The position numbers were made by a program, and so were the translations under genes. Below are positions 588-56,694 of a stretch of DNA of 60,481 nucleotides, in pieces (position 1 is the stretch's first letter; every line of letters begins with the position of its first letter). Source of the DNA: Clostridia bacterium. Its GTDB lineage: Bacteria > Bacillota > Clostridia > Christensenellales > Borkfalkiaceae. The stretch lies in contig JAFWBT010000005.1 of assembly GCA_017507005.1 (NCBI GenBank), positions 1 to 60,481 on the forward strand. Direction: 5' to 3'. The notes under the pieces were generated by a model that was not told where the DNA came from, did not search any database, and saw nothing but the letters and a program-made list of their open reading frames with translations.

Positions 588-3056
588 ATGGTAAGAATAG
601 ACGAACTACTGGAAAAACTTAATGACGAACAAATAAAACCCGTTTTGCAAACGGAGGGCGCGGTGCTCGTTTTGGCAGGCGCAGGCAGCGGAAAAACGCG
701 TGTGCTCACTTCGCGTATTGCCTATCTCGTGGAAGAAAAACGTGTGCCGGCGGAGGCGATTCTTGCAATCACGTTCACCAACAAAGCCGCCAACGAAATG
801 AAAGAACGTCTTTCACAGATTGTAGACGTTTCGAGGGCTTGGGTGTGCACGATTCATAGTATGTGCGTGCGCATTTTGCGTATGTACGCGCAGGAAGTGG
901 GTATCACGGCGAATTTCTCCATTTACAGCGAAACGGAACGCAATAACATTATCAAAAAATCGTTCCAAGAATGTGACTACGACGACGAAAAGCTGTTAAA
1001 AACGATAAAATGGCATATCGCCAACGCGAAAATGCTGGGTCTTGACGCCGAACGCTATGCCGAGGAATACGCAGGGGAATACGAGATAGACGATATCGTT
1101 AAGGTGTATCGCCGCTATCAAAAACACCTGCGCGAAAATAACGCGCTCGATTTTGACGACCTTTTGAACGAAACGCGGTTGCTCCTGAAAAACAACGCCG
1201 ACGCGCGGGAGTATTTGGGCAGTAAATTCCGCTATATCCTCGTGGACGAGTTTCAGGACACCAACGCGGTGCAATACGAAATCGTCCGTTTGCTCGCGTC
1301 CGTGCACGGCAATCTGTTCGCCGTGGGCGACGACGACCAGTCCATTTACGGCTGGCGCGGCGCGAAAATAGAGAATATTTTACATTTTGAAAAGGATTTC
1401 AAGGACGCGAAAGTGTTCAAATTAGAGCGCAACTACCGTTCCACGAAAAACATCTTAAAGCTGGCGAACACCGTCATCAAAAACAACGGACACAGAAAGG
1501 ATAAAACCCTTTGGACGGAAAACGGCGAGGGCGAAAAAGCCGTTGTGCACGAGGCGGAAGAGGAGAGCGGCGAGGCGCGGTATATCGCGCATACGATTGC
1601 TGGGCTTATGCGCGAAGGGTATAAATTTTCCGATTTTGCAATCCTGATGCGACTGAACGCCCTTACGCGCTCGTTCGAACAAGAGTTTACGGGCGACGGC
1701 ATACCGTACAAGGTATTTGGCGGCTTTAAATTCTTCGAGCGGAAAGAGATTAAAGACCTGTTGGCGTATCTGCGCTTAATCAACAACCCCTTTGACAGCG
1801 AAGCGGCGGTGCGTATTATCAACTTTCCCAAGCGCGGTATCGGCGCAAAGACGGTGGAAACGCTGCAAAATTACGCGTACGAGCAGGAACTTTCGTTCTA
1901 CGATGCGCTGCTCGATTTAGACGAAATCGGGTTTACGGGCGCGACAAAGCAAAAGCTGGTGGATTTCCGCGATATGATAAAGACGTGGATAGTGGACAGC
2001 CTAGAAACGCCCGTGAACGAGCTGGTGAAAAAGATTGTTGCGGACACGCATATGCGCGAGGCGTACGCCGATGAATCGGACGAGAGCATTAACAAGCGCG
2101 CGAACATAGAAGAATTTATCAATTCCGTAGAGGAATATTGCCGGTTGAACGAGGGGGCGACGCTCACCGATTATCTCAACCAAGTGACGCTGTCCTCGGA
2201 CACTGACGATATGGACGACGGCAATTACGTTACGCTCGCTACCGTGCACTCGGTAAAGGGCTTGGAGTTTAAGTGTGTGTTCGTGTGCGGTATGGAAGAA
2301 AATATCCTGCCCGTATCGCGCGCCGTGGACAACGAGGACGAGATGGAAGAAGAACGCCGCTTGATGTACGTCGCGATTACCCGTGCGAAAGAACGGCTGT
2401 TCCTTACGCGCAGTAAGAGTCGTTATCTATACGGCAAGCGCGAACCGACGGCGCGTTCGAGGTTTTTAAAAGAACTAGCCTCGGAATTAGACCTGCCGAG
2501 AGAAACCCGTCGTATGTCCTTTGGGTATGACGATTTTGACGACCCTGAAATGTACGGAAATTCCTCGTACGGTGGGGGCAGGTATGCGTCGAACGACGAT
2601 TATGGCAGAAAAAATACCTACGGCGGCGGTGGCTACGGCTCGTCGCATAACGGTGGCTACGGCGGCTATAAAGATTCCGCACGGAGCAATTCGGGCGTCA
2701 CGCGTACGGCTTGGAACGGCGGCTCGTCTTACGGCAGTTCGTCGTATGGCAATTCTTACGGCAGTTCGTATGGCGGCTCGTCCTATGGCGGTGGAAATAA
2801 GCAGGGCGCGGGCGCAAAGAGCGGCGGTTTTACGTACGGCGGCATTTCGCGTACAAGCGGCGCGGCAAAACCGACGGGCGGCAAGGACGTTTCCGCGTTC
2901 CGTATCGGCGTGCGGGTAAGGCATCCGAAATTTGGCGACGGTACGGTGGTGAACGTGCGCGGCACGGGCAACAACACCATTTTAGATATCGGTTTTGAGG
3001 GCTTGGGTATCAAGCAACTGTCCGCGAGCCTTGCGCCGTTGACAATTATCGGCTGA
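588..3056 (+). CDS. pcrA: ATP-dependent DNA helicase PcrA (UvrD/Rep superfamily 1)
   Basis: An 822-residue 3'-5' helicase for nucleotide-excision repair, plasmid replication and removal of RecA or RNA polymerase from DNA. Visible motifs: Q-motif LNDEQ (~12), Walker A GAGSGKT (31-37), Walker B VDEFQDTN (~220), GDDDQSIYGWRG (~246-257) and TVHSVKGLEF (~550). A glycine/serine/tyrosine-rich low-complexity tract fills ~655-767, and a Tudor-like C-terminal domain (VRHPKFGDGTVVNV) follows. An upstream TTG at 567 lies inside the promoter, so ATG 588 is the start. No Shine-Dalgarno site precedes it and the message is probably almost leaderless. Family members are about 720-740 residues; the extra length is the low-complexity linker. 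ligA follows, the usual pcrA-ligA pairing. Confidence 0.96.
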   Translation: MVRIDELLEKLNDEQIKPVLQTEGAVLVLAGAGSGKTRVLTSRIAYLVEEKRVPAEAILAITFTNKAANEMKERLSQIVDVSRAWVCTIHSMCVRILRMYAQEVGITANFSIYSETERNNIIKKSFQECDYDDEKLLKTIKWHIANAKMLGLDAERYAEEYAGEYEIDDIVKVYRRYQKHLRENNALDFDDLLNETRLLLKNNADAREYLGSKFRYILVDEFQDTNAVQYEIVRLLASVHGNLFAVGDDDQSIYGWRGAKIENILHFEKDFKDAKVFKLERNYRSTKNILKLANTVIKNNGHRKDKTLWTENGEGEKAVVHEAEEESGEARYIAHTIAGLMREGYKFSDFAILMRLNALTRSFEQEFTGDGIPYKVFGGFKFFERKEIKDLLAYLRLINNPFDSEAAVRIINFPKRGIGAKTVETLQNYAYEQELSFYDALLDLDEIGFTGATKQKLVDFRDMIKTWIVDSLETPVNELVKKIVADTHMREAYADESDESINKRANIEEFINSVEEYCRLNEGATLTDYLNQVTLSSDTDDMDDGNYVTLATVHSVKGLEFKCVFVCGMEENILPVSRAVDNEDEMEEERRLMYVAITRAKERLFLTRSKSRYLYGKREPTARSRFLKELASELDLPRETRRMSFGYDDFDDPEMYGNSSYGGGRYASNDDYGRKNTYGGGGYGSSHNGGYGGYKDSARSNSGVTRTAWNGGSSYGSSSYGNSYGSSYGGSSYGGGNKQGAGAKSGGFTYGGISRTSGAAKPTGGKDVSAFRIGVRVRHPKFGDGTVVNVRGTGNNTILDIGFEGLGIKQLSASLAPLTIIG
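2574..2594 (+). repeat. Dispersed repeat, copy inside pcrA
   Basis: GGGGGCAGGTATGCGTCGAAC lacks only minor matches to the copy at 26317-26337 (one substitution over 21 bases). It encodes part of the low-complexity linker of PcrA. Confidence 0.65.
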
Positions 3057-3099
3057 GGGGCTGTGAAAAGCAAAAACTTCACGAAAACACGAGGTTTGT

Positions 3100-5049
3100 A
3101 TGAAAAATAGGCAAAGACAACTGACGGATATTCTCAACAAATGGGCGTACGAATACTACGTCCTCGACGCGCCTACGGTGTCGGATAAGGAATACGACGC
3201 CTTGTACGACGAATTGCGGAATATAGAGGCGCTGACGGGGGAAGTGTTCCCCGACAGCCCCACCCGCCGTGTCGGGGGCGAGCCGATTAAGGGCTTTGAA
3301 AAGCATACCCATATCCAGCGTTTGTTTAGCTTGGACAAGTCGGTGTCTACGGAGGAATTGCAGGCGTTTTTGACTCGTGTGAAAAAGCTCGTGGGCGAGA
3401 AACAGCCAAAGTACACCGTGGAATATAAATTCGACGGGCTGACGGTGTGTTTAACATACGATAAAGGGCAGTTTGTTCGCGCGACGACGCGCGGCAACGG
3501 CGTAGAGGGCGAGGACGTAACGGCGCAGGTGTTGACGATAAAATCTTTCCCGTTGAAAATATCCTATCAGGGCACTTTGGAGGTGCGTGGCGAGGCGATT
3601 ATTCGGCTTTCCGTACTCGAAAAATACAACGAAACGGCGGCGGAGCCTTTGAAAAACGCCCGTAACGCGGCGGCAGGCGCGATACGAAATCTCGATCCCA
3701 AAATCACCGAAAAACGTCACCCTGAAATTTACTTCTACGACGTCAATTATACCTCGGACGAGGCACCCATGTCTCAAACGAACGCACACGAGTTCCTGAA
3801 AAAAGAGGGCTTTAAAGTGTATCCGTATTTCCGTGTTTGCGAAACGGACGAAGAGGTGTTGGCGGCGATTGACGAGATTGAAAAGGAGCGCCGAAAAATA
3901 GACGTACTCACCGACGGCGCGGTGATTAAGGTGAACGACGCGACGCTTCGTGAGGAAATGGGTTTCACCGATAAATTCCCTCGCTGGGCGATGGCTTATA
4001 AATTTGAGGCGGAGGAAGTGACGACGCTGTTAAAAGACGTTGTTTGGCAGGTGGGCAGAACGGGCAAATTAACACCGCTTGCTCTGCTCGAACCCGTAGA
4101 ACTCGGCGGCGTCACCGTTTCCCGTGCAACGTTGAACAATTACGGGGACATTTTGCGTAAGGACGTAAAGATAGGCTCGCGCGTGCTTGTGCGGCGTTCT
4201 AACGAGGTAATTCCCGAGATTTTGGGCGCGACGGAGCATACCAAAGACAGCACGGACGTACAAAAACCTAGCTTTTGTCCTGCGTGCGGCGCGGCGGTGG
4301 AAGAAATCGGCGCGCATCTGTTCTGTCCCAACCGCGATTGCGTGCCCCGTATCGTAGCGGCGCTCGACCATTACGCGAGCAAAAACGCTATGAATATCGA
4401 CGGCTTTTCCGAGAGTACGGCGCAGCAGTTGGTGGAAAAGGGCTACGTGAAAAACTTTTCCGATTTATACGCCCTGACAGTGGAAAATTTGGCAGGTTTG
4501 GACGGTTTTAAAGATAAAAAAATCGCCAATTTATTGACGGCGATAGAAAAGAGCAAGACACCTACCATGGACGCGTTCATTTACGCAATCGGCGTGGAGG
4601 GCATAGGCAGGGTTGCGGCGAAAGATTTGGCGGCACGGTTTAAAAATATAGAAAATTTACGCGCGGCGGCAGTGGAAGAATTGCAAACCCTTGAAAATAT
4701 CGGCGAGATTACGGCGCAGGCGATAGTGGAATATTTCCACGATAATAGAAACCTTGAAGAGTTGGCGGCGTTACAGCGCGCAGGGGTTGCGCCTACGTGG
4801 TCGGACGAAAAGAAAGAGGGGATATTCTCGGGCGAATCGGTGGTGCTGACGGGCACGCTGACGGAATACAAACGCAGCGAGGCGCAAAAGCTGATAGAAG
4901 AACGCGGCGGCGTATGTCAATCGTCGGTGACGGCGAAAACGACGTTGGTGCTGGCAGGCGCGGAGGCAGGTAGCAAACTCGCCAAGGCGCAAAAGCTGGG
5001 CATCAAGATTATCGACGAGGCGACTTTTAAGGCAATGTTAGAGGAATAA
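3100..5049 (+). CDS. ligA: NAD-dependent DNA ligase LigA
   Basis: A 649-residue NAD+-dependent ligase sealing nicks in replication and repair. Domain Ia (residues 1-70) has the [15 protein letters not shown] pattern. The adenylation motif KFDG places the nucleophile at Lys110. A zinc finger uses Cys393, Cys396, Cys409 and Cys414. Helix-hairpin-helix repeats span ~430-560 and a BRCT domain covers ~572-649 ([15 protein letters not shown]). ATG 3100 is preceded by GAGG at 3091. It lies 43 bp after pcrA and is probably co-transcribed with it. Length and motif order are those of the family. Confidence 0.97.
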
Positions 5050-56639: not shown

Positions 56640-56653
56640 ACGAGGGGAAATCT

Positions 56654-56694
56654 GTCGAAAAATGTAAAATGGATAGGGCAGGTACGCGTTGAAT
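56654..56694 (+). repeat. Dispersed repeat, full-length copy after bioY
   Basis: GTCGAAAAATGTAAAATGGA, TA, then GGGCAGGTACGCGTTGAAT. Best match to the 41-bp consensus. Confidence 0.8.

Follow-up and report, generated by a model that had tools for sequence, protein, structure and literature searches.

Dispersed sites with a conserved core and helically phased flanks in a genus of gut Clostridia may program where supercoiled DNA folds

The 60,481-nucleotide stretch of DNA analysed here (the window; contig JAFWBT010000005.1 of assembly GCA_017507005.1, a Clostridia bacterium of the family Borkfalkiaceae) carries genes for, among others, a UvrD/PcrA-like helicase, a DNA ligase, a serpin and an ABC-F protein. 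It is contig 26 of a genome of 1.56 Mb that is 71% complete (G000 in our numbering). Scattered within and between its genes lie copies of an asymmetric core of about 30 bp. We find that this core is dispersed through most genomes of one genus of gut Clostridia, that its sites evolve mostly in place and that the DNA on both sides is phased in its A+T content over more than 100 bp. From these features we propose, tentatively, that core and flanks may together specify where negatively supercoiled DNA folds.

An earlier note on the window had described a core of about 20 bp and knew of no published element with this sequence. The repeat is real: seven matches at up to three mismatches lie in the window, all on the + strand, against 0.14 expected from shuffles. 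We trained a weight matrix of 50 columns on 445,734 bases (five contigs of the same genome, about 446 kb) and counted as sites all scores of at least 13 bits, with the reversed matrix run on the same DNA as control. This gave 160 sites in the 446 kb, about one per 2.8 kb, and none with the control. Fourteen of the 15 positions listed earlier pass the matrix, namely all 11 called copies, of which six lie 1-2 bases away from the stated position, and three of the four weaker matches (38932, 41939 and 54103); the fourth, at 58088, falls below the threshold. Four additional sites (4563, 29810, 46019 and 48557) bring the total in the window to 18 (Table 1). When the core was relaxed slightly and two mismatches were allowed, the whole genome gave 138 matches and the backward-read control none. 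The wider sample of 132 loci (1.60 Mb) consisted of the five contigs, 109 named loci (five non-clostridial stretches having been dropped) and 18 near relatives and held 611 sites against three with the control. Site density in the named loci is biased because these were picked for holding the exact core. One locus (L158, Defluviimonas) is not clostridial and contributes one chance site; without it, 610 sites in 131 loci remain and the phasing reported below is the same.

The core comes in two flavours, GGGCAGGTAYGCGWTGAAC and TACC(A/G)TGTACGMGWTGAAC. With the first G of GGGCAGG as position 0, positions -1 to 2 switch between GGGG and the TACC/ACCC flavour. Conserved are G at -5, C3 A4 K5 G6, T7 A8 Y9 G10, C11 G12, T14 G15 A16 A17 and, more weakly, G19, as well as A/T at -18 to -14, A at -9 to -7 and A/T at 23 to 26. 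The extension of some 20 bp on the 5' side that had been noticed in several copies does exist, in a degenerate form made up of the A/T block at -18 to -14 and the AAA at -9 to -7. The whole can be written as AAAnG...CAKGTAYGCGWTGAACG, with A/T blocks roughly 10 bp apart between -16 and +25.

Table 1. Matrix sites in the window and one example of the extended element (terminator-like hairpins were judged by eye)
Feature	Position	Strand	Matrix score (bits)	Context
Site, core GGGCAGGTATGCGTCGAAC	2576..2594	+	37.0	inside UvrD/PcrA-like helicase gene 567-3056 (Pfam)
Weak site	4563..4581	+	19.0	inside DNA ligase gene; additional to the earlier note
Site, core GGGCAGGTATGCGACGAAC	26319..26337	+	36.9	
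Site, TACCGTG flavour	27488..27506	+	32.7	gap between convergent open reading frames (ORFs); first of tandem pair 32 bp apart; terminator-like hairpin after the pair
Second site of tandem pair	27520..27538	+	18.9	
Weak site	29810..29828	+	19.3	additional to the earlier note
Site, TACCATG flavour	38932..38950	+	24.2	within semialdehyde dehydrogenase-like gene
Site, TACCATG flavour	41939..41957	+	25.2	within class-III aminotransferase gene
Site, TACCATG flavour	43846..43864	+	35.6	convergent carbamoyltransferase/serpin gap, 3' of terminator-like hairpin
Site	44835..44853	+	23.5	within minus-strand serpin gene
Site	46019..46037	+	31.6	in minus-strand transporter gene; additional to the earlier note; aligned position in relative G027 scores 24.5 bits
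Site	47867..47885	+	40.2	convergent ORF gap, terminator-like hairpin directly after
Weak site	48557..48575	+	20.5	additional to the earlier note
Site	51720..51738	+	38.8	within minus-strand ABC-F gene
Site	53546..53564	+	27.7	ABC-F/radical-SAM intergenic
Site	54103..54121	+	28.2	in minus-strand radical-SAM gene; site in 11 relatives, 10 aligned gap-free
Site	56033..56051	+	29.9	near start of ORF 55956-56639
Site	56676..56694	+	38.6	convergent ORF gap, terminator-like hairpin after
Extended element, core at 56676 plus 131 bp per side	56545..56807	+		range from the 588-site average, not from this single copy

Comparison with relatives confined the core largely to one genus. At up to one mismatch it is present in 46 of 48 same-genus genomes with 2 to 99 copies each; it is missing from G001 and G002, and G046 carries two copies. 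Thirty-two order-mates from other families yielded four stray matches in three genomes, and the backward control two in one genome. The exact core occurs in at least 114 stretches among the named matches listed, 108 of which are titled as metagenome-assembled genomes of Clostridia or Clostridiales, many from the gut of deer, sheep and goat; the other six of the matches listed (four actinobacteria, Roseiflexus and Defluviimonas) were taken as chance. In viral contigs neither the exact core nor the TACC flavour was found, and a shorter 17-mer in six contigs is presumably chance. The claim that no described element has this sequence was upheld: three core strings are absent from the PMC literature, and the sole Rfam match in the window is a tRNA. 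Within the literature found, which mostly leaves subscription journals outside, we saw no such element under uptake-sequence dialects in Firmicutes, architecture repeats in Clostridia or phased A-tracts with plectonemes.

Sites evolve mainly in place. The S-adenosylmethionine synthetase gene is present in 56 of 57 genomes of the genus, and its surroundings (7.8-20 kb) were taken from 20. Across 81 aligned pairs, sites and orthologous positions differ mostly by substitution, and only one pair has a contiguous gap of at least 15 opposite the site. Any gap within 50 columns was seen in 44 of the 81 pairs, compared with 744 of 5059 background windows of 30 columns (14.7%); 38 of the 44 belong to the ABC-F site and the intergenic site at 53.5 kb, both of them variable loci, and among the pairs from elsewhere 6 of 42 are gapped. 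At the position in the ABC-F gene, 12 of 16 aligned relatives have a site despite the varying length of the surrounding sequence. The idea, also raised in the earlier note, that the repeat is copied from place to place does not agree with these alignments.

The flanks extend the element far beyond the core. Averaged over 604 sites, the A+T content oscillates with distance from the core, peaking near -16, -27, -39, -51, -62, -74 and -86 on one side and near +24, +36, +48, +59, +71 and +83 on the other, with a best period of 11.4-11.6 bp. Over 588 sites, the amplitude (left/right) is 0.034/0.037 at 39-131 bp and 0.014/0.008 at 131-223 bp; it weakens past about 220 bp, with 0.005 on the left (off-period) and 0.007 on the right at 223-315 bp. 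Background positions of the same DNA that were matched for near-flank A/T reached at most 0.0022 further out; all members of this control have at least three of nine A/T positions, which leaves two of the 588 real sites unmatched. The phasing is present separately in the five contigs (159 sites), the near relatives (75) and the named loci (361). It is as strong in the 270 sites that lie 140 bp or more within genes as in 202 sites outside genes, and AA/TT steps carry the signal. Left and right flanks correlate as mirror images, with -1.5 (r 0.78) or 4.5 (r 0.76) as the centre, and since these two values are separated by half a period, the centre is not fixed. On a 0.5-bp grid, the window's genome shows a weak period away from sites, at 11.0; the period is 11.5 in G041 and 10.5 in the motif-poor genomes G001, G002 and G046.

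In one syntenic region, core and phasing are absent together. There, the phase projection was 0.026 with the core and -0.004 at orthologous positions lacking it, a difference of 0.030 +/- 0.004 over 27 sites; it was positive in 23 of the 27 sites and in seven of nine clusters, and random positions gave 0.0003. The columns used are disjoint from the matrix. The sample comprised 302 pairs, in which the orthologue scored below 0 in 97 and at least 13 in 156; the 49 intermediate pairs were excluded, as were pairs with a gap in the core. At least in this region, core and flanks thus evolve as a unit, the phasing being absent from orthologous positions that have no core.

The position of sites relative to genes is not random. 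Among 577 sites classified with mechanical ORF calls, 68% lie in genes (89.5% of the sequence), 11.3% in convergent gaps (2.5%), 18.0% in tandem gaps (5.8%) and 2.6% in divergent gaps (2.3%), corresponding to enrichments of 4.6x, 3.1x and 1.15x for the three kinds of gap. The preference for convergent over divergent gaps counts against promoter use, and a transcription-factor site is not supported, for want of upstream or divergent enrichment and with most sites coding. Repetitive extragenic palindromic (REP) sequences and bacterial interspersed mosaic elements (BIMEs) also favour 3' intergenic positions and can be palindromic, but here two thirds of the sites fall within genes, and single asymmetric sites that evolve in place predominate. 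Of same-strand pairs closer than 62 bp, 10 of 13 are spaced by 31-32 or 42-43 bp, that is, by whole helical turns. In addition, 17 overlapping plus-minus pairs were found, all exactly 21 bp apart, an arrangement made possible by the near-palindrome CGTTGAACG within the core. They are hairpin-capable (mean -24 kcal/mol), 16 of the 17 carry a T-rich tail at one end or both, and 10 lie between convergent ORFs; by hairpin and tail, these pairs look terminator-like.

A small group of genomes uses a different wording. The dialect GGGCAGGGWTTTGACGAMSG has 54 matches in G007, 16 in G029 and seven in G010; 13 other genomes have one each and 41, including that of the window, none. A one-gene tree (41 rows, bootstrap not settled) places G007, G029 and G010 together (88/75) with G046 as sister (96/96), and G001, G002 and G032 join these four in a group of seven (100/97); two rows outside the named groups, G040 and G022, have very long branches and are probably in the wrong frame or strand. 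On this tree, the genomes poor in the motif stand next to those with the dialect, and the remaining genomes use the main dialect. A matrix made for the dialect of G007 found 78 sites in 140 kb (control 3), after a first retrained matrix had run away (1998 sites, 555 control) and been discarded. The original matrix found 13 sites in G041 (control 1); a matrix retrained there also ran away (323 sites) and was not used. In samples of 60-100 kb, the original matrix gave one site in G046 (control 0), three in G001 (0) and one in G002 (1). A search of these motif-poor samples for enriched 11-mers, a weak test, gave no clear replacement motif. The sample of G007 (L234-L240) contains over-represented 11-mers unlike the core, CCTTATGGTAA, GAGGGGATAAG and GGAGGTGTCAC.

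Several other features of the window deserve mention. The longest site-free stretch in the five contigs is 4566-26319 (21.8 kb), and the genes viewed there are ordinary: PriA, RecG, guanylate kinase, a FakA-like protein and a BspA-type leucine-rich-repeat protein. Two 43-base stretches at 23663-23705 and 25142-25184 are 98% identical, contain a terminator-like hairpin and flank the BspA-type gene 1.5 kb apart. The serpin gene, here in a Clostridia genome, lies on the minus strand at 43872-45233 (PF00079, E 7e-43). At 49402-49739, a minus-strand tRNA-Ser is followed by a 115-bp sequence present twice (91% identity, 135-bp spacing), to which G025 aligns in overlapping pieces, as if holding more copies.

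How could such an element work? Phased A-tracts curve DNA, and the A/T blocks of the core, roughly 10 bp apart over 40 bp, would suit a planar bend. We suggest that a putative DNA-binding protein recognizes the asymmetric core and, by bending it, makes it the tip of a plectoneme, with the A-tracts phased at 11.4 bp forming the two interwound arms. With hundreds of such sites, placed preferentially at 3' ends and in convergent gaps, the positions of plectonemes would be fixed and supercoiling domains kept apart. The helical repeat of plectonemic DNA on its superhelix is said, after White, Cozzarelli and Bauer, to equal length divided by linking number, from which a repeat of 11.4-11.5 bp would mean a superhelical density near -0.08. 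Periods above 10.5 bp are linked to plectonemic DNA and periods below 10.5 to solenoids (PMC4132750), and intrinsic curvature pins plectonemes whose tip measures about 73 bp at 3 pN (PMC6301789). Such a bent tip and its interwound arms can explain why the period changes, why the flanks mirror each other and why the phasing reaches so far. On this basis we consider it a serious possibility, held with somewhat less than even confidence, that the sites form a dispersed, sequence-specific element of one gut Clostridia genus which programs the folding of negatively supercoiled DNA.

Several results weigh against this proposal. The core-loss sample stems from a single region, and one cluster supplies 12 of its 27 sites. 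In G007 the phasing is weak, with 0.024 at 11.5 bp on the right and 0.016 at 10.7 bp on the left (noise 0.006); there, 118 matches that the reversed matrix made by chance come to 0.015 (noise 0.005). G001, G002 and G046 are almost free of sites, so the function would be dispensable or replaced there. Close pairs within 220 bp are not commoner than density predicts (40 seen, about 51 expected). Published curvature-pinned plectonemes lie upstream of promoters (PMC6301789), whereas divergent gaps are not enriched here. No binding protein was found: among the families searched in the 57 genomes (ComEC, PF00437, ComEA, phage portal, GyrA repeats and HU), none tracks the motif, and HU, seen in 50 of the 57, is mostly single-copy whether or not a genome has the motif. 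The dialect that follows phylogeny and the inverted pairs in terminator-like settings belong on the same side, as they favour the first of the alternatives to which we now turn.

DNA uptake sequences mark self DNA for import in natural transformation, and biased uptake spreads their copies. The uptake signal sequences (USS) of Pasteurellaceae and the DNA uptake sequences (DUS) of Neisseriaceae share with the present element many dispersed copies, dialects and close inverted, terminator-like pairs. As here, USS have A/T blocks near the core, and inverted pairs serve as terminators in USS/DUS genomes (PMC12616744, PMC2397512). Copy numbers far above chance combined with mostly in-place evolution, intergenic enrichment that is highest in convergent gaps, the grouping of the dialect genomes and ComEC (PF03772) in 57 of 57 genomes all speak for this explanation, but the motif-poor G001, G002 and G046 possess ComEC too. 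The comEC-like gene of the genome analysed here (G000:C16:90723-92402) carries or abuts three sites (91136, 92360 and 92402). The PF00437 pilus/secretion ATPase was strong in three of 57 genomes and over the cut-off in four, the fourth being marginal; the weak matches were short and partial, and none was found in the window's own genome. ComEA (TIGR00426) was over the cut-off in none of the 57, and the better sub-threshold matches lie mostly in frames of 720-740 amino acids, which we take to be Tex-like proteins. Many genomes of the genus are incomplete, so that single gene absences carry little meaning; judged by these searches, the natural-transformation machinery that goes with USS/DUS (pilus ATPase, ComEA and ComEC) appears incomplete. 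The element also differs in its core of about 30 bp and in its flanks, which are phased for more than 100 bp to either side and can be traced to about 220 bp, USS being described as up to 32 nt. An uptake receptor thus accounts for the dialect and the terminator pairs, not for the reach or the missing machinery, and we regard it as unlikely.

A high-affinity site for DNA gyrase, which would wrap the flanks and act at 3' ends and in convergent gaps, is a further candidate that we doubt. BIME-2 elements in E. coli are said to act as such gyrase sites. The 130-bp E. coli motif obtained by Topo-Seq has a central 36 bp and G+C flanks that are helically phased, with a period of 10.75 bp, up to 66 bp from the centre, and gyrase cleaves more often downstream of strongly transcribed operons (PMC6379681); sequence preferences are species-specific, with cleavage preferences for -4G/+8C and -2A/+6T (PMC12324340). 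The likeness lies in a central region between helically phased flanks, the location bias fits, and the species-specific preferences also count in its favour. The period of 11.4 bp and phasing to about 130 bp and beyond do not match that motif, and the described motif is degenerate where the present core is asymmetric and highly specific. By eye, at 4.5, one of the two possible centres, only the G at -4 agrees (360 of 604 sites), with G, G and A at +8, -2 and +6. GyrA C-terminal repeats were found in all but one of the 57 genomes, irrespective of whether the motif is present. Gyrase wrapping accounts for symmetry and location but not for period or reach.

The phasing might instead be no selected architecture at all, and rather the mutational or repair imprint of a DNA-wrapping protein, the site then being that of any nucleoid protein. 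That it is as strong deep in genes, where protein coding also constrains the wording, would suit such an imprint. We think this explanation improbable.

The earlier note had placed every copy on the + strand and had tied this orientation to replication, as for Chi or the FtsK and SpoIIIE guide motifs (KOPS/SRS). The element would then be a polar guide of the Chi, KOPS/SRS or Ter kind, with leading-strand orientation as its function. All 18 sites of the window are indeed on that strand, which is a local extreme: with the leading strand assigned by GC skew, the five contigs have 122 leading and 38 lagging sites (head-on genes 22:5, co-directional genes 63:23, intergenic 37:10). The two strands are thus unequally used, and orientation follows replication rather than transcription, as 22 of 27 sites in head-on genes are on the leading strand. 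A set of 109 short loci (up to 20 kb, clear skew) gives 293:99, or 74.7% leading. However, column-shuffled matrices place 72.5 +/- 3.3% of their top 300 chance matches on the leading strand of the five contigs, and 24 of 200 shuffles equal or pass the observed 76%; in the short loci, 60 column shuffles give 68.2 +/- 3.0%. Since shuffled matrices nearly match the observed bias, the strand preference is mostly compositional, although a residual bias of a few percent may be real. Chi and KOPS, which are likewise dispersed with a leading-strand bias, are about 8 bp long, much shorter than the present element, a quarter of which lies on the other strand. A polar function is very improbable.

Hardly credible, finally, is a small repeat that moves or is copied and enters one strand by preference: its near-identical cores, tandem pairs and excess of gapped pairs notwithstanding, a miniature inverted-repeat transposable element or insertion-sequence remnant was rejected since a long contiguous gap opposite the site was seen in one of 81 pairs, and the concentration of gaps in two loci and the absence of the exact core from viral contigs leave this reading largely contradicted. 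A packaging site of gene transfer agents was also rejected; the phage portal PF04860 occurs in four of 57 genomes.

To our knowledge, an A-tract periodicity of about 11 bp has been known in bacterial genomes for decades, with no agreement on its function. The flanks described here resemble this periodicity and curvature-pinned plectonemes in having an A-tract period above 10.5 bp, which is read as a plectonemic signature; they differ in that their phasing is locked to a specific core and is missing without it, and in that the sites are not enriched in divergent gaps. Because of this lock, the idea of a 'structural code' can be tested site by site. Should the element be an uptake signal instead, these Clostridia would have the signal but lack the known uptake machinery, an equally surprising outcome. 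At its furthest, the proposal would imply a new class of element, with hundreds of plectoneme nucleation sites per genome, each combining a protein-recognized bent core with co-evolving A-tract arms at the plectonemic repeat, and hence a map of supercoils written into the DNA in species dialects; this wider claim we hold to be doubtful. In this genus, the core and its phased flanks may be a built-in instruction for the coiling of the chromosome.

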